From a virus, in the IMG/VR virus record IMGVR_UViG_3300042866_001192, positions 1-22,821 of that record: DNA of 22,821 nt; one strand, 5' to 3'. The translations under genes and the position numbers were made by a program. Of this stretch, positions 5,037-22,821 are shown piece after piece. The first letter of the stretch is position 1; each line of letters starts with the position of its first letter. The notes beneath the pieces are model-generated. The model ran no database searches, had not been told where the DNA came from, and was given only the letters and a program-made list of their open reading frames with translations.

Positions 5037-5063
5037 AAGCCCCGGTAAATCCGGGGCTTTTTT
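5037..5063 (+). terminator. Intrinsic terminator closing the cassette
   Basis: A 9-bp stem pairs 5037-5045 (AAGCCCCGG) with 5051-5059, with a five-base loop TAAAT and six T's (5058-5063). It begins four bases after the microprotein stop and separates the 3156-5033 cassette from the next transcription unit. Confidence 0.92.
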
Positions 5064-5341: not shown

Positions 5342-5370
5342 TGAGTGAGCAATTGTAGGTGGCGAAACAT

Positions 5371-5775
5371 ATGTCATCACAAATATCCTCCTGTGTCAGA
5401 TTCATGGAACGTATGCGCGACCGCGTTGAACAGATGGAGCGCGACGAAGCGAAGCTAAACGCTTCAGCAGACAAACGAGTTCGTGCGCCCATTTTCACCA
5501 GAACCCGCATCAGTAGTGGTTTTGGGAAGGGCATGGTGCGGCGCGACAAATGGCGCGAAGGAATGCCGCGCATCACGCAGGAGGCTTGTGCTGTGGTCCA
5601 TGAATACGCACTAGCTCGGGCCGCAAGCACGGGCTACATCGGACGCAAGAGCTATGGCGAGCGAGCAGGAATCAGCACGGCAACGCTCAACCGTTGCGCG
5701 AATGAAATGATTTCGGGCAAGATTTTCCTTGACCCTGCCGACCGTATTTGGAAAGTGAAACACGTTCAGGGCTAA
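5371..5775 (+). CDS. wHTH-like regulator or DNA-binding protein, 134 aa
   Basis: The ATG at 5371 is chosen because AGGTGG lies eight bases upstream; a GTG at 5359 in the same frame has no good SD. The N-terminal half is charged and probably coiled (RFMERMRDRVEQMERDEAKL). The C-terminal half contains a helix-turn-helix pattern, KSYGERAGISTATLNRCANEMI (roughly residues 92-113), followed by a wing-like strand pair (GKIFLDPADRIWKVKH). The arrangement resembles winged-helix domains in phage replication or repressor proteins. It is the first gene of the main rightward operon and sits behind palindromic sites, so it may be the switch for this unit. The specific target is unknown. Confidence 0.65.
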   Translation: MSSQISSCVRFMERMRDRVEQMERDEAKLNASADKRVRAPIFTRTRISSGFGKGMVRRDKWREGMPRITQEACAVVHEYALARAASTGYIGRKSYGERAGISTATLNRCANEMISGKIFLDPADRIWKVKHVQG

Positions 5776-5858
5776 CAGGGAAAGACCACCGCCCTTTCGG
5801 GCGAGCACACGGGTGCAAGTGGCTCCCATGCGGGAGCTTAGGTGGTTGTCCTGTTGCC
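5770..5858 (+). ncRNA. Predicted multi-hairpin (cloverleaf-like) structured RNA
   Basis: A closing helix pairs 5784-5790 (GACCACC) with 5841-5847. It is extended, across a small internal loop, by 5774-5779 (AACAGG) with 5850-5855 and by GGC (5770-5772) with GCC (5856-5858). Inside are three consecutive hairpins: 5791-5794/5799-5802 (GCCC, loop TTTC), 5805-5808/5813-5816 (GCAC, loop ACGG) and 5822-5827/5832-5837 (GCTCCC, loop ATGC). The element begins at the wHTH stop codon and ends 19 bases before the next ATG. It is not a tRNA, since the loops are only four bases. It has no U-tract, so it is not a simple terminator. A cis-regulatory leader or a phage small RNA is most plausible. I could not match it to a known RNA family. 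Confidence 0.6.
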
Positions 5859-5877
5859 TAACCAAAGAAAGAAAAAC

Positions 5878-6075
5878 ATGAGCAAAAAAACTATCAAAAA
5901 CGGAGGTCCGGCTAACGCGATGAGCCTCCGCGATTATCTTGCAGCGGCTGCAATGCAGGGCATATTGGCCTGCCCTGACATTGTTGCAGACGGAAAGACG
6001 ATTGCGAGATGGGCATATAGACACGCAGATTTGATGATATCTGCGCGGCCAAAGCGGAAGGAGACGGCGTCATGA
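5878..6075 (+). CDS. Small phage protein with SLRDYLAAAAMQG motif, 65 aa
   Basis: The core MSLRDYLAAAAMQGILACPD (residues 15-34) is like a motif I recall in many short phage proteins of unknown function, usually written as L(T/S)xRDYFAAxAMQG. The rest is a helix (IARWAYRHADLMISA) and a basic tail. I chose ATG 5878, since the preceding GGPANA looks like part of the family. An internal ATG at 5920 has GGAGG 13 bases upstream and could be an alternative. The upstream leader is A-rich (AAAGAAAGAAAAAC) and directly follows the structured RNA, so its expression may depend on that element. Confidence 0.65.
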   Translation: MSKKTIKNGGPANAMSLRDYLAAAAMQGILACPDIVADGKTIARWAYRHADLMISARPKRKETAS

Positions 6076-12877: not shown

Positions 12878-13860
12878 GCACACAAAACCCTATTGGATCA
12901 GCCATCGTCGATGAGATGCTGGCTAAGTACCCCGAACTCCCAAGCGCACAGTTGGCTCGTATGATTTACGAGAACAACCCAACTGTCTTCACCAGCCAAG
13001 AGGTGGTGCGGAGTGCAATCCGCTATCGTCGTGGAGCCAACGGTGACAAGAAGCGTAAGAGTGTTGGGCTGGATGAGAACGTTACGCCCAAGTACAAGAT
13101 CCCCAAGTCCTGCACCCGCGCTTGGTCCCCCTTCATCATGGACGGGGTGGAGAAGGTGGCTATCCTCTCAGACATCCACGTTCCCTACCATACAGAGGAG
13201 GCCATTGAGTGCGCGGTAAAGCGCGCCAAAAAGCAGGAGGTGGACGGCATCATTCTCAACGGCGACACCATCGACTGCCATGCTCTTTCCCAGTTCATCC
13301 GAGATCCCCGCGCTCGATCCTTTAAGCAAGAGCGGGAGACGACGAACGAGCTACTAGCCTATCTTCGGGAGCAGTTTCCTCATCAGCGCATTGTCTGGCG
13401 CGACGGCAACCATGAGGACCGCTTCAAAGCCTACATGATGCAGAAGGCTCCCGAGGTGTACGACGAGAAGTTCTTCTCCATCGACAAGCTGCTCAACTTT
13501 GAGGAGCTAGACATTGAGTACGTCACCGACAAGCGCATCATCATGCTGGGCGGCTTGGCCGTGATGCATGGGCATGAGTTCCACAAGGGCTTCGCGCCCC
13601 CGGTGAACCCTGCTCGTGGAGCCTATCTGAAGGCCAAGCAAAGCGTCATGGTGGGACACCACCACCGCACCTCAGAGCACACGGAAACGGCCCTAGACGG
13701 GACGATGACCACTACTTGGAGCGTAGGGTGCCTCTCGGACCTACACCCCGCTTATAGCCCATACAACAGCTATAACCACGGGTCAGCCATCGTCACCCTA
13801 GACGGCAACTACTATGAGGTGGCTAACTACCGCATCGTCAACGGACGGGCGTTGAATTAG
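12874..13860 (+). CDS. Metallophosphoesterase with N-terminal helical domain
   Basis: The last rightward gene encodes 328 residues. The calcineurin-like core shows the metal-binding blocks in order: D100-x-H102 (SDIHVP), D131 (LNGDTID), N179-H180 (GNHED), H232 (MHGHE) and H262/H264 (VGHHHR). Residues 8-54 form an HTH-like domain (DEMLAKYPELPSAQLARMIYE, QEVVRSAIRYRR) that may guide it to DNA or nucleoprotein. It could be a nuclease, phosphatase or cyclic-nucleotide phosphodiesterase; phage relatives are often annotated as DNA repair or nuclease-like. The start overlaps the upstream stop (ATGA), and its 3' end overlaps the convergent virion gene by 23 bp. Confidence 0.85.
   Translation: MSTQNPIGSAIVDEMLAKYPELPSAQLARMIYENNPTVFTSQEVVRSAIRYRRGANGDKKRKSVGLDENVTPKYKIPKSCTRAWSPFIMDGVEKVAILSDIHVPYHTEEAIECAVKRAKKQEVDGIILNGDTIDCHALSQFIRDPRARSFKQERETTNELLAYLREQFPHQRIVWRDGNHEDRFKAYMMQKAPEVYDEKFFSIDKLLNFEELDIEYVTDKRIIMLGGLAVMHGHEFHKGFAPPVNPARGAYLKAKQSVMVGHHHRTSEHTETALDGTMTTTWSVGCLSDLHPAYSPYNSYNHGSAIVTLDGNYYEVANYRIVNGRALN
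13838..13860. other. Convergent gene overlap, no terminator seen
   Basis: The metallophosphoesterase stop (13858-13860) and the minus-strand virion gene stop (13840-13838) overlap by 23 bp. I find no hairpin plus T-run between the two transcription units, so their messages would be complementary at the 3' ends. Confidence 0.85.
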
Positions 13861-16813
13861 TTTGCTGCCCATCCCTATTCCTCTCATCCCGGCTGCGCGA
13901 GAGGTTTAGGATGGTTCCAAGAGTCGGGTTGCGAGAAATTGCGGTAGCCAACTCTCCACTCGCTGCGGCAACCTTGGGCGCCCACTTAGGGTCAACATAC
14001 ATCTTATAGATAGTGTTGTAGCGTCCGTTTCGGAGCATATCAGTAATGCTCTTTAGATCGGCATATGCAGTTACGTTGACCTTCCTGTCTCCCGCGTTTT
14101 GACGCTGTCTAACGGATAGGCCAGCCAGTCTCCCGGCTTTGGTAGCGTCCATGATGTTCTCCTTCACTTCGACTATGTTCTTAATAGGACGACCGAAGGT
14201 GCGCTCAAGATTACTGTACTCATCATTGCCAACCAGAGCAATGAAGCGGCGACGGATTTCGTCGTTATCATTGCCGCTCTTGTAGAAAAATTCATGTAGC
14301 TCCTTGAGTTTAGCTCTTGGGACTACGCCTTCTACAGAAGACTCGTACTGGCGCATTATATTTGCAGCAGCAGCAATTCGTAGATTCTCAAGACTTTCAA
14401 AGTCGCCACGATCCCTAAATGCGTTTACCAAACGAGTAATGGACTCCTTGGGCATCGTAAGAATCTTGCCCACCCAATTACCGTTGTTTGCAGGATCACT
14501 TGCCAGCTTGAAGTTGCTATCCTCAAACATACGAACAAGCGGGTCGTTTCGCGCATCAACTAGAGCCTTCTCCGCATCGCGCAAAGTGATTCCTGCCTTC
14601 TTGGCAGCAACAGTCATTCTTGCAGCAGTTTGGCCCTTTTCCTTGGCCCCCGCAGCAATTAGGTTGTCGCGCACAGCTCTCTGATAGTCCAGCTTCCAAG
14701 CAGCCCGATCTCCACCAATAACTGCGGCAGCATCCAAGAAATCGTTAAGTTCCTTCTGGGTTACTGTCTTTGTGGTCTTGCTGAGATCAAAAACACGGGC
14801 AAGGGAACGAATCATGCCAGACGTGCCAATGCCAAGCTGCTCAGGCTTAAATCCAACTGAGTCAAGCGCATCTAGTTCGGAAGCCAGCTTGTCCAATGAA
14901 AATGCATCAAGCCCCTTGCGCACTCCCTTGCCGATGATTCTCGACTGGCTGAGCGCAGCATCAGCAAGCGAGGTGTTTAGATTGCGGACAAAAATATCGG
15001 CAGCTTCAATCGCACGCCGTTGCCCAAACGGATCAGTCTTATCATAACTAGCAGCAATCGTTGTAGCAATCTTTCGGAAGTCCTGAGCAGCCTGACTAGC
15101 CTTGCCGCCTTCTTTAATCGACTGGTACAGCGTGTCAGAAATCTGAGCGTTCAGCTTAGGATCTGCTGTAATAAGCTGATAAGCAGGCGTATCTTGAGCA
15201 ACGAAATGGGAACGCGCCAAAGACTGAGCCGCTTCCCATGCCGGGAAGTAGCTGGCGTTGGTCCGTTTGATGTAACGGTTAGCGGCGCGAGCAACCGCAT
15301 CATAGGCGTCTGACGCAACACTACGAGCGTCTCCTTCACTCATCCCTGATGCAACCAACGCGTCGCGTGAGGAGTTCCTAAGCTGCCTAAACTTCAAAAG
15401 GTCCAGCTTGTTGCCATCGACATTGTTAGCCATGACATAGCTCTCAACAATCTCCTTCATCTGCTTACGGATCAAGTTATTGCTGAGATGGCTTTGGGGG
15501 TTCTTACCAAGAAGATCAATCTCTTCAAAGATGTCTGGCATAGAAACAACGGGAGTGTTGTTTTCATAGCCAGCTAGCTTATACGCATCTTTGATCGCTG
15601 CTTTCATGTGGTTGTCTGCTGCGGAGACAATCCCACGCACATTGTTATCACGGACAGCCGCAGACACGCTATCAAGTGAGCGGCCCTCAATGCCTTTAAG
15701 CTGTTTCGTTACGGTGTCTAAAAGTTTGACGCGAGCGGCTGTTTCTTGAAATCCGGCAAGCTCAGCTTTGGCAACCAACGAGGGGGCGTCTCGACCACTT
15801 GCAGCCCGAGCATTAGCCGCCTCAGATGCGGCCTTGCTATAGTTCGACTTGGCAAGGTTGTAATCATCTTGCAACTGCGTTAGCAAGTCGCGCTTTGCCA
15901 TCAAGTCTTCACGAATTGGGGCAATATCAGGAATATCTTTGAAGTAAGATTCAATCTTAGGACCAATAGGAGCATCCAAGTTTGAGATGATTTCATCGGC
16001 CAGCAATGACTGCCGAGCATAAGCAGCCCGTTCGGTTTCGGCAAAGTCGGGGATAGCTTCAGAAAGGGCAACGGTGGCATTGGGGCCACGCTCAGATTGA
16101 ACCCTAGCGATGTTAGCCTGAGCTTCCTTGCTACGAGCCGCCGTACTGCCAGCCGCACTAGCTAGCCCAGCAAACGCAAGCGGAACGCCATAGCGCAAAC
16201 CATAGCCAGCAATATCCTCTTCAAATGGCGTATAGCGACTATTCCCTTCTGCGTCCTTGCCCATAGCAATAAACCGAGAAAGCTCGCTTGTTCCCAAGGC
16301 CGAACCCACATTGGTGCTAGTCCTCGCAGCAAGCGATCCTGTGGTCTTCATTGGAGCAAGACCAGCAATCGTTGCGGCGGTAATGGCGTTCGGGTCATAC
16401 TCTACGCGATCCTTGTCAAGCTGCTCAATAGTTTGAGCAACAAACTCAGACGTAGCACCAGCACCTGCGCCAATCAAAGAGGTGAGTCCAACGGCAGTAG
16501 CACCAGCAATGCCAGCAGGGATAGCAGCAGGAGCGAGCACTCCAGCGGCCACAGGGCCAACGATGCGAGCACCCAATGCCAAGGCTGGCTTAGCAGCTTC
16601 AAGCCCAGCAGAAGCCCTAGCTTGGGCTTCGTCTGGAGTCATTCCAGTAATCGTAGAGCGAGGCTGAACAGCATTAGGATTGGCAAGCATGGGCTGTTGC
16701 TCGCGCATCTGCTGCTCATCCATCTGCTTAGCTCGACGATAGATTTCCTCGTCGCTAAGCTCGTCAGAAAAGACAACTTCGCGACCATTAGAAAGGATTA
16801 CTGTGGTAGCCAT
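13838..16813 (-). CDS. Large internal virion / DNA-ejection protein, 991 aa
   Basis: The predicted protein starts MATTVILSNGREVVFSDELSDEEIYRRAK, a short beta-plus-helix module. It has one long hydrophobic Ala/Gly-rich stretch (residues 77-119) that could insert in membranes during DNA entry, and then about 850 residues of mainly helical sequence. Position as the last gene of the late block, after two other long helical proteins, and the size match podoviral ejection proteins of the T7 gp16 or P22 gp16/gp20 sort. No lysozyme or transglycosylase domain is visible. The start has no clear SD (AAGTAGAAT before ATG). Confidence 0.7.
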   Translation of the reverse strand: MATTVILSNGREVVFSDELSDEEIYRRAKQMDEQQMREQQPMLANPNAVQPRSTITGMTPDEAQARASAGLEAAKPALALGARIVGPVAAGVLAPAAIPAGIAGATAVGLTSLIGAGAGATSEFVAQTIEQLDKDRVEYDPNAITAATIAGLAPMKTTGSLAARTSTNVGSALGTSELSRFIAMGKDAEGNSRYTPFEEDIAGYGLRYGVPLAFAGLASAAGSTAARSKEAQANIARVQSERGPNATVALSEAIPDFAETERAAYARQSLLADEIISNLDAPIGPKIESYFKDIPDIAPIREDLMAKRDLLTQLQDDYNLAKSNYSKAASEAANARAASGRDAPSLVAKAELAGFQETAARVKLLDTVTKQLKGIEGRSLDSVSAAVRDNNVRGIVSAADNHMKAAIKDAYKLAGYENNTPVVSMPDIFEEIDLLGKNPQSHLSNNLIRKQMKEIVESYVMANNVDGNKLDLLKFRQLRNSSRDALVASGMSEGDARSVASDAYDAVARAANRYIKRTNASYFPAWEAAQSLARSHFVAQDTPAYQLITADPKLNAQISDTLYQSIKEGGKASQAAQDFRKIATTIAASYDKTDPFGQRRAIEAADIFVRNLNTSLADAALSQSRIIGKGVRKGLDAFSLDKLASELDALDSVGFKPEQLGIGTSGMIRSLARVFDLSKTTKTVTQKELNDFLDAAAVIGGDRAAWKLDYQRAVRDNLIAAGAKEKGQTAARMTVAAKKAGITLRDAEKALVDARNDPLVRMFEDSNFKLASDPANNGNWVGKILTMPKESITRLVNAFRDRGDFESLENLRIAAAANIMRQYESSVEGVVPRAKLKELHEFFYKSGNDNDEIRRRFIALVGNDEYSNLERTFGRPIKNIVEVKENIMDATKAGRLAGLSVRQRQNAGDRKVNVTAYADLKSITDMLRNGRYNTIYKMYVDPKWAPKVAAASGELATAISRNPTLGTILNLSRSRDERNRDGQQTNSTPVR

Positions 16814-16820
16814 ATTCTAC

Positions 16821-18296
16821 TTATCGTCCAACAAAGTCCAACAGGTTATATTGACTCTGAGTAGGTTGCTTTACTGGAACAAGTTTACCATCGCCAATTC
16901 TCAAAGTCCTTGTTGTTGCAAACGGATTGTTCTGCTGCAAGGAAGGGGCTTGTTCATTGGAAAACTCGTACAAAGGAATTAGATCCAAAGGTCTAGCAAA
17001 AGTATATTTTTCCTTAGCGTTGTAATTGTACAAGTCCAAGTCCTGCTTGTATAGATTGTTCTTTTCATTAACAATCGCAAACAATGCTTTGCGAACACGA
17101 TCAATGTTTGTCGAAATATTTCTAATGTCGCCATCCATTGCCTGATACAGGCGTTCAGCGTCTTGGTCTGTAAGAACTCCCGGTCCAAGGATCTCATTCC
17201 TAATCGCACCAAGAAGACGTTGCTGCCTTGCTTTGCCCTCACCAAGGGCATTTTCTGCTTCAGAAAGAGGAAGTCCAAGTGCAGTCTTAACTTTTGAAGT
17301 AAACCCTTCAACCACACGCTGAAGACCACTACGGCTTAACCCCTCGGTAGACTTCAAAAATTCATTAATGGAATTGATTTGATTCTGTTGATTTACTATA
17401 TCCGTACTGATCTTTCGGAATCCATCTGGACTTAAAGTATTGGATTCGCTTCTAGATGAAGGCGAATATTCACTAAGGTTTAGTTTTACACGATTTCCCT
17501 TGGCGTCGTGTCTATAATAGTTACCACGGGCATCAACTATAGTTGAGATAGGGTCTCCTGTGCCGTCGGCACGCCTAAAGATACCACCCGGATTAAACGT
17601 CTCTACACCACCAACTGCCACAATATCGGCAATCCGCCCTTGATATTGATCTTGCGTGATAAGACCTCTAGCCAATTCTGAATCAGCAATAACTTTGGCG
17701 TTCTTCATTGCGGATGTAGGCTCTCCGCCCCCGCCGCTTGCGCGAGACTCGAGTTCCCTAATCTGAGCTTCGGTCTTGCGGGTCTCAAGGTTCATTTGGC
17801 GACCAGCCAGCTTGGCCTCAGGCGAGAACTGACCTTCTTGGAAGCTACGCAAGTTCTTCATGAACGAAGCACCCGTATTATCTTCACCTTGAGTCTGGGT
17901 GAGATAGTCGGCATACTTTGCGCTCTCAGTCTTGAGCTTTTCAGCCTTATCCTGCTTAGCAAATCCAGAAAGATAGGTGTTTAGCTGCAACGCGGCTTCA
18001 AAACCAAGATCATTCACCATCGACCTAACTGCATCCTTATCAACCTTCCCGTCCTTTAAGTAGCTTTGGAAAGCGGCAGGGTTGGCCTCAATAGTTTTGA
18101 TGAACGAGTTTGCAGCCCCTTCCCTCTTCTTCTCTTCCTCTTTCCTAGTGTAATAGTCGCTGATGGACTTGCCAGCGATTTGTCCGAGCGTAGCAATGGC
18201 CTGAGCATAAGCCTGCCCCCCGCTTGCAATAGGAGAGTAGTCAACAAGACCAAGCTGAGGACGAATACCAGAACCAAAACGAGATGGGCGTGCCAT
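16821..18296 (-). CDS. Probable internal virion protein, 491 aa
   Basis: The N terminus is MARPSRFGSGIRPQLGLVDY, then a helical region with charged heptads (YYTRKEEEKKREGAANSFI, about residues 48-66). A flexible Ser/Gly stretch (ASGGGGEP, about 186-193) separates a middle domain (TIVDARGNYYRHDAKGNRV) from a C-terminal helical half. No enzyme motif is seen. It is transcribed between the 727-aa and 991-aa proteins with gaps of three and seven bases, so all three are coexpressed and likely act as a set in DNA ejection. It may alternatively be a tail or scaffold component. Confidence 0.65.
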   Translation of the reverse strand: MARPSRFGSGIRPQLGLVDYSPIASGGQAYAQAIATLGQIAGKSISDYYTRKEEEKKREGAANSFIKTIEANPAAFQSYLKDGKVDKDAVRSMVNDLGFEAALQLNTYLSGFAKQDKAEKLKTESAKYADYLTQTQGEDNTGASFMKNLRSFQEGQFSPEAKLAGRQMNLETRKTEAQIRELESRASGGGGEPTSAMKNAKVIADSELARGLITQDQYQGRIADIVAVGGVETFNPGGIFRRADGTGDPISTIVDARGNYYRHDAKGNRVKLNLSEYSPSSRSESNTLSPDGFRKISTDIVNQQNQINSINEFLKSTEGLSRSGLQRVVEGFTSKVKTALGLPLSEAENALGEGKARQQRLLGAIRNEILGPGVLTDQDAERLYQAMDGDIRNISTNIDRVRKALFAIVNEKNNLYKQDLDLYNYNAKEKYTFARPLDLIPLYEFSNEQAPSLQQNNPFATTRTLRIGDGKLVPVKQPTQSQYNLLDFVGR

Positions 18297-18299
18297 AAA

Positions 18300-20483
18300 T
18301 TATAGGGATTTAATCCGGCTATCCATCCACTTGCGGATAAGATTCTTGATGCGCGGTTTGTCGCTGATCCAGTCGGCAAAGCGTTCGCCATGCTTCTCGT
18401 ACAGCTTAACAAACCACTTAGGAGCCTTAGTGTACAACCACTCGCGGAATGCCAGCCACATCGGATTAAACTCGCCATAGACTGCGCGAGCCACCCAGCA
18501 GGCGCCACCAGCCGCACCAGTTTTACGCCTTGGATCGAAATATGACGTAACACCAGAGCCAAGAACATTGCCAGCCGCACCAAGCGCAGCACTAGTCATG
18601 GCACTCCTAGAGGCATAGGTATTAGCCAAATAATTTGTCTCATTGGCTTTATTGGTCATAGCAAGGTTAATTCCGGCGTCAGGATCAAACACATTGCCAC
18701 CAAATGCCTCCATCATACCAGCAGCGGCACCACGTTCACCAGCGGCAGCGCGAGAAGCACCAGAGGAACGCCCAAGAACAGCCATCATCGGGTCAAAAGA
18801 CATACCACCATACGCACCAGCAAGGTTAATATCAAATGCTCGATTTGCGCCCATCTCGCGCATACGCTCACTTCCAAGAACACGAAGTTGTTCCAACGCC
18901 TTAGCCTGCTGATCTGCTGAAAAGGCACGATTTGCCATTAGCGTCTCCATTTGGTTGAGCTTATTAAACTCAGCAAAACGGTTCATGGCCGCAGCATTTT
19001 CTGCACGCCGCTTAGCCTCTACATCTAGATTAGCCAAGGCTCCACGACTGGCCTGCTCTGCGGCAAAACGAGCCGCTTCATTTCCAGCCGCCATATTCGC
19101 CGCGCTAAACGCATTTTCTGCGCCTTGGTTAGCCATCGCATAACGAGCCATCAAATCGGCATTAATACGGGATGCCTCATTGGCAGCAGTAGCTCCAAAG
19201 CGAGCAGCTTCAGTACGCGCTCCCGCTCCAAAGCGAGCGGCTTCATTGCGAGCCGCAGCACCAAACTGCGCAGCTTCATTTGCCGCGGCAGCACTAAATC
19301 GAGCAGCCTCATTAGCCGACATTGCACCAAATTCGCGCGCCCTATTAATCGCTGCTTGATCGGCAGTAGAAAGCTGAAGTCCAGCAGCTTGATTAGCCAA
19401 CGCAGAACGCAAAGCAGCATCTTGATTTGTCTGCAAACGGCCAAGATCCTGACCATACACACCCGTAGCAAATCCACGGCTGGCGTTGAGGTCGGCCAGA
19501 TAAGCCTGATTGAGCGCAGCAGCCTGCTGGATGTCCTGAGCCTGACGCTGACGAACGGCCTCAGCACGGGACATAGCTTCAGCAGCAATAGCCTGATTGC
19601 TCATCTCTAGCCCACGGGAAGCGAAAGCCTCACGGGTAGCCTGCTGGGCGTTACGAAGTTCCTCCGGCGAAAGCTGGCCTGTAGAAACAGCCATCTCCGC
19701 AGCACGGCGACGAAAGGTTTCGGAAGCAGCCGTAGGAGCCGCTCCCATAGCCTGACCATAAAGGCTTTCGCCAAGAGCACCTTGTCCAATAGTTTGCGCG
19801 GCAACATCGGCAACACGTTGAGCGCGCTCAGCATCATACCCTTGAGATCCATATCCCTGAGCAGCAAATCCTTCAGCATTATATCCTTCAGCACCATAAC
19901 CTTGTGAGCCAACGGTTGGAGCAGCACCAAGCAAAGAAGCGGCAGCACGCTCTGGCGAATATCCTCCAAGGTTTACTCCCTGCATCGCCTCAATCATCGA
20001 GGCTTCTGCTGGGGTAAAATTAACATCCCCAAAAATACGGCGATTTGCCATCGCCGTTTCCAAGTCCTTAAAGTAGTCTGTTGGAGCGCCCTTTAGTTTA
20101 GCCGCCTCTAAAGCAGCAAAGGCTTCTGGGTTTGCGTCAATAAATGCTTTCCTTGCTCTTTCACCAAGCTTTTCAATGTCCGTAATATCGGCAGTACGAA
20201 GAGCCGTATTAGCCGCTGCATCAATCTTGCTGATTTCCGGCGTAACATCTCGCAGAATATCAAGCGTTCCACGGGTTCCCGGTTGTCCCTCTTTTCCGGG
20301 AATACCAAAAGTGTACTGAGCTAGTTCATCAAGATTAAGCTTGGTGTATTGCGGACGAAACTGCTGTTCAGACCCCAAAATCTTCGCTTGAAGCTCGGGG
20401 TCTGCCATTGCTGTAATGTAATCCAAGGCCGATTTGCCGGGATCAATCGGAGCGGGAGCGGGGGGGGGCTTAGGAAAGCACAT
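18300..20483 (-). CDS. Ala-rich internal virion protein with 11-residue repeats and CFI-box-like C terminus
   Basis: The protein (727 residues) starts MCFPKPPPAPAPID, a Cys-second, Pro-rich opening also seen in the T7 gp14 type of internal virion protein (the MC start only). Residues 195-219 hold five pentads of GYxAE/GYxSQ type. Residues 390-444 hold five 11-residue repeats of the form xNEAARFxAxA, which predict a long amphipathic helix. The C terminus (662-727) begins CWVARAVYG and continues with aromatic/basic helices (FREWLYTKAPKWF, ERFADWI). It resembles the CFI-box type C-terminal domain (compare CFIATAAYG). It follows the GNAT-like gene with a 14-bp overlap. Confidence 0.75.
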   Translation of the reverse strand: MCFPKPPPAPAPIDPGKSALDYITAMADPELQAKILGSEQQFRPQYTKLNLDELAQYTFGIPGKEGQPGTRGTLDILRDVTPEISKIDAAANTALRTADITDIEKLGERARKAFIDANPEAFAALEAAKLKGAPTDYFKDLETAMANRRIFGDVNFTPAEASMIEAMQGVNLGGYSPERAAASLLGAAPTVGSQGYGAEGYNAEGFAAQGYGSQGYDAERAQRVADVAAQTIGQGALGESLYGQAMGAAPTAASETFRRRAAEMAVSTGQLSPEELRNAQQATREAFASRGLEMSNQAIAAEAMSRAEAVRQRQAQDIQQAAALNQAYLADLNASRGFATGVYGQDLGRLQTNQDAALRSALANQAAGLQLSTADQAAINRAREFGAMSANEAARFSAAAANEAAQFGAAARNEAARFGAGARTEAARFGATAANEASRINADLMARYAMANQGAENAFSAANMAAGNEAARFAAEQASRGALANLDVEAKRRAENAAAMNRFAEFNKLNQMETLMANRAFSADQQAKALEQLRVLGSERMREMGANRAFDINLAGAYGGMSFDPMMAVLGRSSGASRAAAGERGAAAGMMEAFGGNVFDPDAGINLAMTNKANETNYLANTYASRSAMTSAALGAAGNVLGSGVTSYFDPRRKTGAAGGACWVARAVYGEFNPMWLAFREWLYTKAPKWFVKLYEKHGERFADWISDKPRIKNLIRKWMDSRIKSL
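19152..19316 (-). repeat. Five 11-residue (33-bp) repeats coding xNEAARFxAxA
   Basis: The units, in protein order, are ANEAARFSAAA, ANEAAQFGAAA, RNEAARFGAGA, RTEAARFGATA and ANEASRINADL. The 33-bp phase is kept, and the DNA copies are diverged. Hendecads of this kind form continuous amphipathic helices. Confidence 0.85.
19827..19901 (-). repeat. Five 15-bp repeats coding GYxAE-type pentads
   Basis: In protein order the units read GYGAE, GYNAE, GFAAQ, GYGSQ and GYDAE (residues 195-219). The repeats are tandem and in frame. Confidence 0.85.
20460..20468 (-). repeat. Run of nine C's on the coding strand of the 727-aa gene
   Basis: Codons 6-8 of the 727-aa gene are all CCC (three prolines) in a nine-base homopolymer. 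A length change would shift the frame near the N terminus. The upstream GNAT stop lies just beyond the run, at 20470-20472. Confidence 0.9.
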
Positions 20484-20847
20484 TGGGATTTGAAGTAAAA
20501 ATTTCGGTTTCCCAGATTGGGGTAAACCCTAACGATTTCATTACCGCATTATAAGGACTTGTTTTGTTGCAAAGAACAATGTACGGCTGCCCATTGGTCT
20601 TCTCCTCCATTATAGCATCGTAAGCGTGTTTTAGCTGAATACTGTCTCTTGCGCCAATTTTTGTGCTGTGGTTCCATATCATTACGGTTGGCGCAAGCGT
20701 AAGCGATCCAGCACCAACAATTTCTCCATTTTTAATAACAACATGGGTCGGCATACAAAACCCATGATTATCTTCGGCTGCACACTTTAAAACAGCTTTA
20801 GCTTCTTCGTGCGACCTGACTCTTCGTACTAGCGGTACGTTGCTCAT
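20470..20847 (-). CDS. GNAT-like phage protein, 125 aa
   Basis: The product reads as a small acetyltransferase fold: an N-terminal helix (HEEAKAVLKCAAEDNH), strands around HVVIKNGEIVGAGSLTLAPTVMIW, and the C-terminal GNAT-like YNAVMKSLGFTPIWETEIF. The acetyl-CoA loop (usually Q/RxxGxG/A) is not evident, so it may be a non-catalytic relative. Such proteins often lie next to the tail nozzle gene in podovirus late operons. The start at 20847 follows the nozzle stop by four bases without an SD; its stop falls inside the next gene. Confidence 0.6.
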   Translation of the reverse strand: MSNVPLVRRVRSHEEAKAVLKCAAEDNHGFCMPTHVVIKNGEIVGAGSLTLAPTVMIWNHSTKIGARDSIQLKHAYDAIMEEKTNGQPYIVLCNKTSPYNAVMKSLGFTPIWETEIFTSNPNVLS

Positions 20848-20851
20848 ATAA

Positions 20852-22821
20852 TTAACTTGCCTCAGTAACAGAGCGGAACGCTTGATAGGCTTCTAGCTTC
20901 ACCATACGAAGCTTAGGACGGCCCTTGGTCGGTACGAACTTTAGCTGCATTCCATAGGCGCGGATATTGCCAATACGGCCACGAATAGAGCTATCCTCGC
21001 CAATAGGCAGGTCTTCCTCAAGGCTCTGAGCCAATGAGTACATCGGGGCTTCCTTATCGATGTTTTCGGAAATCATAGTGATGTCCGCATCGCTAGGCTC
21101 ATACTCAGAGCTTTCAACGTGAACCTCGTAGGAATTGAAGCTCTTGCGGCCAACGTCGTCAAAGACATACTGGCGGGTAACTACCTCTGACTCAATCGGG
21201 TACGGGATAGAGTCGCCGCCGGGAACCGTGTAAATGTAGTCGAATCCATCCACACGCTCATCAATGGTATGCACGCCACCAAAGCGGTTGACGGCATAGA
21301 GCTTGTTGATGCCGCCAGCCCCAGACACGATGAGGTTGCTAATGTCCCAGCCCTCTTGGTCGATGATGTCCAAACTCTCCCAGCCCTGATTCAACAGGTT
21401 GTAGACGAGGATGGCATTGTTGCGCGGACTGTTATCTAGTGGTACTGCAATCCAATAGCGATTGTCGTGGTAGATCGCCACAGCGTTGTGGGCGTAGTCT
21501 GGATTGATCCGCTTGATAAGCGGGTTAATCGGATCAGATAGGGGCAACCCCGCGCCACGAAGGTTGTACAGGTCTTGGAAGGACGTGGAGTAGACGCCGT
21601 TGTCAGACAGGAAAAAGATGCGGTCTCCAATAGTTACTACGCTCTTCTGCGCCACCAACCCAGCCTCGCGGGTGATTTCCTTCAAAGAAATATCCGCAAT
21701 AGATCCGCTCAGCCCGAGCATTAGATGGATCGAATTGCGGTTGAAGATAACAGCGTTATCCTCAGTAAATGGGTGAACATACTGGAGATAGTCCGCAATG
21801 CCAGCCGTAACCTTTAGCTGGTTTTGGATGCGGTCATAAGTGTCAGAGTCGAATACGTCCGATAGGAGGATTTCATCCCTGACGTTCCGGTCCGTAATTG
21901 TTTCGCTGCCGCTGCTGCCCGTGGTGTTGTAGTAATAGGGGACAATCAAACGCCGCTGGTGGTAGACACCCCACGCCGGGGCGGGCATATGCGTGAAGCC
22001 AAGCTGGGACGGCTGCTTCTTGGCGTACACCACCTTATGCGAAGTTAGATCGGGAACTTCAGCGTAGAAAGTAAAGGTATCGGCGTCTGCTACCGTAGCA
22101 ATAACATACCCCTGCTCTTGCTCAACAAGAGTAGAACTTCCTTTATCAACAACATGAATCCTGTCCCCAACCGAAAAACCGTGAGCCGTTTCGCTAACCG
22201 TTACAATACCGTTTGCAATTACGGTGTTGTTGTTTGAATCCAAATAGGTGGTTGCCGCGTAATCTCCATTAGCCACCTTCGTAAAAGCTGGCGTGCCGCT
22301 AAAGCTGCCATTCCATTGCAGAGCCGTAGCCCCGTCGCGGAATATGAAAACCTTGTTGAAGGCTTGCAGCATATTCACGGGTTGTGAAATGAAGATGCCA
22401 GAAGGGTAGGCAATCGTCGTCGTTGCCTTGGTCGCCATGTTGATAGCGATGGCGTTCGAGAACAGAGCGAGGATGATGTACTCGTCGTTGTTCGATGCGG
22501 GATTTGAGAACAGGCATGAGCCAAAAGCTCCGTTGATGCTGCTGGTTCCGAGGATAGCTCCACCAGCCTTAGAGCTAGCAGTAACTGAGTAGGTCTCGCT
22601 TCCGGTGGCACCAGCAATCGTGTAGGTAAACGTATTAAGGCCAGTAACGGTGATGGTCTTGTTGCCGTTGGGGTCCACCGTGCCGGGGCCAACATCTACA
22701 ATAGCAACAGCGTAGGACGACGAGAAACCGTGATTGGTTGACGTAGTGATGGTTACCGTCGTGCCGCTGCGGGTGGCCGAGCTAATAACCACTTGCGGCC
22801 ACAAATAGAACGGCAGAGCAA
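20852..22821 (-). CDS. Tail nozzle / tail tube-like beta-propeller protein, 5' end off window
   Basis: The frame is open to the right edge (reading ALPFYLWPQVV before the first internal start), so the true N terminus lies outside. At least 655 residues are visible. The N-terminal visible part is Ser/Thr-rich and beta (SATRSGTTVTITTSTNHGFSS). The middle and C terminus are a series of propeller-like strands (FFLSDNGVYSTSF, YHDNRYWIAVPLD, NAILVYNLLNQGWESLD, KLYAVNRFGG), as in podoviral nozzle proteins (T7 gp12, P22 gp10). It closes the tail tip and connects to needle or fibres. A TTG at 22804 is in frame but need not be the start. Confidence 0.75.
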   Translation of the reverse strand, partial: ALPFYLWPQVVISSATRSGTTVTITTSTNHGFSSSYAVAIVDVGPGTVDPNGNKTITVTGLNTFTYTIAGATGSETYSVTASSKAGGAILGTSSINGAFGSCLFSNPASNNDEYIILALFSNAIAINMATKATTTIAYPSGIFISQPVNMLQAFNKVFIFRDGATALQWNGSFSGTPAFTKVANGDYAATTYLDSNNNTVIANGIVTVSETAHGFSVGDRIHVVDKGSSTLVEQEQGYVIATVADADTFTFYAEVPDLTSHKVVYAKKQPSQLGFTHMPAPAWGVYHQRRLIVPYYYNTTGSSGSETITDRNVRDEILLSDVFDSDTYDRIQNQLKVTAGIADYLQYVHPFTEDNAVIFNRNSIHLMLGLSGSIADISLKEITREAGLVAQKSVVTIGDRIFFLSDNGVYSTSFQDLYNLRGAGLPLSDPINPLIKRINPDYAHNAVAIYHDNRYWIAVPLDNSPRNNAILVYNLLNQGWESLDIIDQEGWDISNLIVSGAGGINKLYAVNRFGGVHTIDERVDGFDYIYTVPGGDSIPYPIESEVVTRQYVFDDVGRKSFNSYEVHVESSEYEPSDADITMISENIDKEAPMYSLAQSLEEDLPIGEDSSIRGRIGNIRAYGMQLKFVPTKGRPKLRMVKLEAYQAFRSVTEAS

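Follow-up and report, generated by a model that had tools for sequence, protein, structure and literature searches.

Few structured RNAs are known from phages, and several of them (the put RNA, the phage hammerheads and the regulatory pseudoknots of T4) have revealed new control mechanisms. The put RNA of phage HK022 is about 70 nt long and comprises two stem-loops; its putR site lies about 270 nt past the start of PR and acts at a distance (PMC9378689). Hammerhead ribozymes flank varied prophage genes, and one of them is located 13 nt upstream of an early helicase gene, where it matches an mRNA 5' end (PMC3088659). A third type of arrangement is found in the L17 downstream element, a structured RNA that always lies just 3' of one gene and is proposed to provide feedback for that gene (PMC2864571). 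The locus described here combines a compact junction RNA with a fixed partner gene, P0001, in a phage operon. Based on the comparison of related contigs, we regard it as established that this element is a conserved four-way-junction RNA of the + strand, carried in the operon message and tied to P0001.

The element occupies about 82 bases (5774-5855, + strand) of the window, i.e., the whole analyzed stretch of 22,821 nucleotides from a single IMG/VR virus record. Helix P1 (7 bp) closes a junction with the hairpins P2 (4 bp), P3 (4 bp) and P4 (7 bp), each with a loop of 4 nt, and an outer clamp P0 (7 bp) follows below P1 (Table 1). RNAfold assigns -42.8 kcal/mol to this fold (z -4.12), and none of 200 dinucleotide shuffles is as good; the 121-nt context of the element reaches -51.5 kcal/mol (z -3.76). 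A first-pass annotation, made from the window alone, had noted the 7-bp closing helix and the three hairpins with 4-nt loops exactly and at the correct place. Its clean 9-bp outer extension proved to be 7 bp followed by four more pairs across a bulge. The element does not fill the intergenic gap exactly either, as that annotation had proposed: the 5' foot overlaps the last codon and the TAA of the upstream gene, while about 19 nt including a ribosome site separate the 3' foot from the ATG at 5878. An A-rich sequence directly follows the element, and in the fold of the 121-nt context no pairing involves the start region of the next gene, which leaves its ribosome site free. A simple terminator had been dismissed for want of a U-tract, and indeed no + strand terminator-like site is detected at the element. 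Its distinction from a tRNA is equally borne out, with 0 genes called by ARAGORN in the window.

Table 1. Coordinates of the RNA element and its flanking genes in the window. Percentages refer to paired cells among 22 distinct sequences.
Feature	Position	Strand	Basis and remarks
P0001, 138-aa protein	5359-5775	+	ORF; partner gene directly 5' of the RNA
P0 extension, 5' strand GGGC	5769-5772	+	RNAfold; pairs with 5856-5859; window-specific, not retained in all relatives
TAA stop codon of P0001	5773-5775	+	Sits within the P0 foot
P0, 5' strand AACAGGG	5774-5780	+	RNAfold; pairs with 5849-5855
P1, 5' strand (closing helix, 7 bp)	5784-5790	+	98.0% paired; two-sided change in 1 pair, one-sided in 3
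Hairpin P2, 4 bp (5791-5794/5799-5802), loop 5795-5798	5791-5802	+	100% paired; two-sided changes in 3/4 pairs
Junction J2/3, RA	5803-5804	+	A5804 invariant in 22 sequences
Hairpin P3, 4 bp (5805-5808/5813-5816), loop ACGG 5809-5812	5805-5816	+	98.9% paired; two-sided changes in 3/4 pairs
Junction J3/4, AAGU	5817-5820	+	4/4 positions invariant in 22 sequences, both forms
Hairpin P4, 7 bp (5821-5827/5832-5838), loop AUGC 5828-5831	5821-5838	+	98.7% paired; two-sided changes in 5/7 pairs
Junction J4/1, UA	5839-5840	+	2/2 positions invariant in 22 sequences
P1, 3' strand	5841-5847	+	Pairs with 5784-5790
P0, 3' strand UCCUGUU	5849-5855	+	RNAfold; the second form instead has ACCGUG(C) just 3' of P1
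P0 extension, 3' strand	5856-5859	+	RNAfold; pairs with 5769-5772
Downstream 65-aa gene	5878-6075	+	Weak PHROG matches including a transcriptional regulator

Relatives of P0001 occur in 22 IMG/VR contigs, to which an alignment adds four and a DNA pattern built on the RNA only adds two more. In all of these 28 other contigs, the element lies directly 3' of P0001. The reverse search gives the same picture: all eight matches to the RNA-only DNA patterns adjoin P0001 in one scan and 20 out of 21 do so in another, the remaining one being a chance match that the model rejects. Each record carries one convincing copy, the two extra matches of that search having E 0.2-0.4. For a model of both forms, the best match in 0.87 Mb of control loci (unrelated viral loci and loci having only the downstream gene in common) is no better than E 1.1. 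The constant linkage to P0001 may nevertheless be inherited rather than functional, since all carriers belong to one phage group. Neither the P0001 alignment nor the terminase retrieved bacterial or prophage relatives in contig scans. Searches of annotated phages found no relative of P0001, and those of annotated phages and plasmids no relative of the RNA, only chance matches of 19-32 nt. The terminase large subunit (137-1744, - strand) has a single close annotated relative, in phage C75C1 (45% identity); this nearest annotated phage by terminase shows no RNA match. Judged by these searches, the phage group is otherwise undescribed within the annotated collection. Five large ORFs on the - strand of 13838-22804 are probably virion genes of an undescribed lineage; the four of 991, 491, 727 and 125 aa are without a match in PHROG or Pfam, and that of 650 aa shows weak structural matches only.

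There are 22 distinct element sequences, 16 of the window type and six of a second form. When both forms are considered, 98.8% of the pair cells are standard and 12 of the 22 pairs show two-sided changes, while controls with slid partners reach 32-42% paired cells. For the window type alone, 99.4% of the cells are paired, with two-sided change in nine of 22 pairs, and none of 500 shuffles scores as high. As shuffles ignore relatedness, a tree-aware null was also applied to the 22 sequences, in which the inferred substitutions of each column are redistributed over the tree. Four structural pairs then remain at E<0.05 and four more at 0.06-0.12. The covariation among these 22 closely related sequences thus exceeds the phylogenetic expectation, and is solid though not overwhelming. 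The compensatory changes that the first-pass annotation had suggested looking for in homologous gaps are present in the gaps beside P0001.

One-sided changes keep the pairing as G-U in 63 cells versus three A-C cells, which shows that the pairing molecule is a + strand RNA and not a DNA cruciform. The reverse strand of the element also folds well (z -4.38, RNAfold), as might be expected of a DNA-level structure such as a cruciform origin, but any inverted-repeat DNA would do so. Given that the compensatory changes and the excess of G-U cells require pairing in the + strand RNA, a DNA-level structure or a chance fold is barely conceivable.

The rate of change points to selection on the RNA as well. 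Among window-type pairs of sequences, the mean RNA distance is 0.16 versus a pS of 0.48 in P0001; among second-form pairs it is 0.27 versus 0.65 at P0001 synonymous sites. Overall, the element changes about two to three times less than these synonymous sites. In the second form, the P0001 frame enters the element, and synonymous change is depressed in the overlap. Most pairs show a pN/pS of 0.6-0.98 there, and one pair a value of 0.16, compared to 0.03-0.12 in the P0001 core, the core values for L182 being left out due to misalignment. A 2-nt deletion in P3 of L188/L191 shifts the P0001 frame while the fold is preserved. In the five other second-form sequences (L177, L179-L182), the frame continues across the RNA for about 29 further codons and ends at a TGA at the boundary of the P4 loop and the P4 3' strand; protein-level constraint on this additional peptide is weak or absent. 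Stop-codon readthrough into the element was considered, because the frames of the window type and the second form look alike past the stop, and was rejected: in several members, indels of 1 and 4 nt break the frame and the fold stays.

Such frame ends raise the question of a translation-linked role. The fold would then keep the translation of P0001 apart from that of the next gene, or couple the two, and would be opened by ribosomes terminating at the foot (window form) or inside P4 (second form). The P0001 stop codon is built into the P0 foot in window-type sequences, and the TGA of the five second-form sequences fits the same idea. However, some members do not retain the frame, the ribosome site of the next gene is left free, that gene varies and simple hairpins would suffice for this purpose. 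We consider a role of this type improbable.

The most constant part of the element is its junction. Seven of the eight junction nucleotides (RA, AAGU and UA) are invariant across the 22 sequences; among the eight loop nucleotides of P2 and P4 only one is, and in the P4 stem, with its 14 nucleotides, none. As invariance is concentrated in the junction, while the hairpin loops drift among relatives and the P4 stem is variable, the junction is probably the functional centre. The single varying position, the purine at 5803 in J2/3, changes together with the P2 pair 5792-5801 (pair 9-18): a C-G pair occurs with G and a U-A pair with A. This may reflect a base triple, or a single inherited change.

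Outside the junction, the two forms differ in the way the foot of P1 is arranged. The 16 window-type sequences have a P3 of 4 bp; their clamp is AACAGG/CCUGUU, except in L027 and L034, where it is reduced to AACAG/CUGUU. Within this type, AACAG and its partner CCTGTT are invariant, which precludes a covariation test of P0. The six second-form sequences (L177, L179, L180, L181, L182 and L191) keep P1, P2 and P4, and are without P0. Their P3 is extended by an inner stem (GGUC/GACC, AAGC/GCUU or GAGC/GCUC), and covariation backs P1, P3 and this inner stem. The P3 loop of the second form, (G)CACGGU, is complementary to the ACCGUG(C) directly 3' of P1, which suggests a possible pseudoknot. The seven pairs of this putative pseudoknot are invariant apart from one broken cell, so that covariation lends them no support. 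For L177, L179, L180 and L182, RNAfold favors a nested structure instead, formed with the pseudoknot strands at the expense of P1 and P3. A pseudoknot and a conformational switch hence both remain candidates for the second form in these models. The kinship of the two forms is apparent from a model based on window-type sequences alone, which recovers the second form at E 1.7e-9 to 2.6e-5. In one of the relatives (L016), the sequence upstream of P0001 is nearly the same as in the window and the downstream gene is 94% identical, yet the RNA and the P0001 C-terminus are clearly different. This pattern suggests that the RNA and the end of P0001 were exchanged as one piece, and recombination could contribute to the RNA similarity between contigs.

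Comparison with described RNA classes was performed with Rfam 15. In the window, no model reaches its gathering threshold, and for positions 5600-6000 there is no match at E<=10, be it to a ribozyme or another family. The relatives give only sub-threshold matches at chance level, the best being Ocean-V on the opposite strand (19.4 bits, far below its gathering score of 75 bits). By the evidence of Rfam 15 and the annotated collections used here, the element represents a new RNA family. The proposal of the first-pass annotation, a new structured RNA that is either cis-acting or released, is supported: a lack of covariation, a folding energy no better than that of shuffled sequence and a clear match to an ordinary known element were named as refuting outcomes, and none of the three was observed.

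The partner gene itself is poorly annotated. Searches at E 1e-3 or looser assign P0001 to no family of Pfam, PHROG, NCBIfam or PADLOC, and PADLOC gives nothing at E<=1. No known toxin or abortive-infection (Abi) family is thus matched, as would be expected of the partner protein in a type III toxin-antitoxin or abortive-infection RNA-protein pair that belonged to one. The AlphaFold2 model reaches a pLDDT of 82-89 for residues 71-130, and Foldseek returns weak winged-helix matches only (best E 0.02). The C-terminal domain is accordingly predicted to be a winged helix, the N-terminal part being less certain. In this model, P0001 resembles a DNA-binding winged-helix protein, and RNA binding by P0001 is a guess.

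In the window, P0001 and the RNA are followed by a small variable gene, a helix-turn-helix replication protein (PHROG 270), an exonuclease and a DnaB-like helicase. The first-pass label of early genes for the flanking genes is plausible, as it fits these replication genes. A strong intrinsic terminator (5037-5059, AAGCCCCGGTAAATCCGGGGCTT TTTTG) closes the genes preceding P0001. The stretch of about 300 nt that comes after it holds no convincing gene and is not homologous between most relatives. No conserved promoter is found before P0001, the upstream sequence not being homologous among most relatives. Downstream of the element, no strong intrinsic terminator occurs within 4.5 kb. The genes on both sides of the unit formed by P0001 and the RNA vary in the relatives, while the replication module further downstream is kept; the 65-aa gene is not constant, and in most relatives other genes come after the RNA. 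In some relatives (L030 and L033), no more than about 10 nt separate the end of the preceding gene from P0001, which indicates that an early place in the operon is not a constant trait of the element.

This arrangement bears on the idea, also raised in the first-pass annotation, of a switch for the following gene. Such a switch is less likely, since the element is always linked to the gene upstream of it, the genes that follow it differ among the relatives and the ribosome site is free. The same applies to a metabolite riboswitch. A multi-branched junction with a nearly invariant unpaired core has the usual look of an aptamer; however, no riboswitch of Rfam is matched and an expression platform on the following gene is absent (no terminator, an unpaired start and no constant gene to control), rendering this explanation highly unlikely. 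Alternatively, a small RNA might be released from the operon and act in trans, for instance as an antisense or protein-binding RNA in the manner of phage C4 RNA. A self-contained, very stable fold that is kept as a unit in a polycistronic message would suit this role. On the other hand, no promoter-like site was found nearby and there is no terminator of its own, its loops are only 4 nt long and drift, unlike antisense seeds, and the Rfam models of the C4 and c4-a1b1 classes are not matched. We therefore deem a released small RNA a distinctly unlikely explanation.

The reading we favor, tentatively and at somewhat less than an even chance, is cis-acting control of the replication operon through the binding of P0001 or RNA polymerase, these two options being about evenly likely within it. 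The element is carried in the operon mRNA, directly after P0001 and upstream of the replication genes, with the foot of P1 held by the outer helix P0 in the window form or, putatively, by the complementarity between the P3 loop and the strand 3' of P1 in the second form. Once transcribed, the junction core would be bound by a factor that sets the expression strength of the downstream replication genes. P0001 is a first candidate, either as feedback control or as an antiterminator that uses its own adjacent site; by analogy with the HK022 put RNA, RNA polymerase could be the second. Since the 4.5 kb downstream are free of strong intrinsic terminators, an antiterminator would need Rho-dependent stops or pauses. 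Against cis-acting control stand the single copy per genome, the position that is not always early in the operon and the translation of P0001 in the second form, which would run through the element.

An element of mRNA processing or stability would act at the same intercistronic position. Here, an RNase site, an exonuclease block or a new self-cleaving ribozyme would part the P0001 message from the replication genes. The compact junction with an invariant core and drifting stems is consistent with this role, as are the intergenic location in a phage operon and the lack of specificity for a downstream gene; phage hammerheads likewise flank varied genes (PMC3088659). The absence of any Rfam ribozyme match argues against it, and for RNase III in particular, the stack of P0 and P1 is short and interrupted, with the second form being without P0. 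Such a processing element is rather unlikely in our view. With a comparably low likelihood, the same core, locked naturally in two ways (outer helix or pseudoknot), may constitute a new functional class of phage RNA. This would be either a four-way-junction antiterminator that is processive and factor-independent, or a self-cleaving ribozyme of a new kind.

The structure is secure; as to function, we infer it. With 22 distinct natural sequences, two forms and a constant partner gene, binding, cleavage and antitermination are each directly testable. The element would also add an entry to Rfam, strictly associated with one gene, from phages that are otherwise unannotated.

Among known systems, the tRNA cloverleaf shares with the element its outline of four helices around a junction and a closing helix of 7 bp. 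The junction spacing of tRNA is 2-1-variable-0, whereas that of the present element is 0-2-4-2; it further differs by its 4-nt loops and the absence of a called tRNA gene. Like the phage hammerheads and other self-cleaving ribozymes, it is a compact multi-helix junction RNA between varied phage genes (PMC3088659), but no known catalytic core is recognized in it by the Rfam models. The L17 downstream element shares the fixed position behind one gene. It follows a ribosomal protein gene in Lactobacillales and Listeria, however, and the Rfam scan reveals no kinship in sequence or structure. For the HK022 put RNA, the likeness lies in the comparable early-operon site of putR (PMC9378689). Put consists of two stem-loops and occurs at two sites per HK022 genome, in contrast to the conserved four-way junction and the one convincing copy of the present element. 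Finally, put binds the beta' zinc-binding domain of RNA polymerase and suppresses termination, and an action of the present element on RNA polymerase is proposed by analogy with it.
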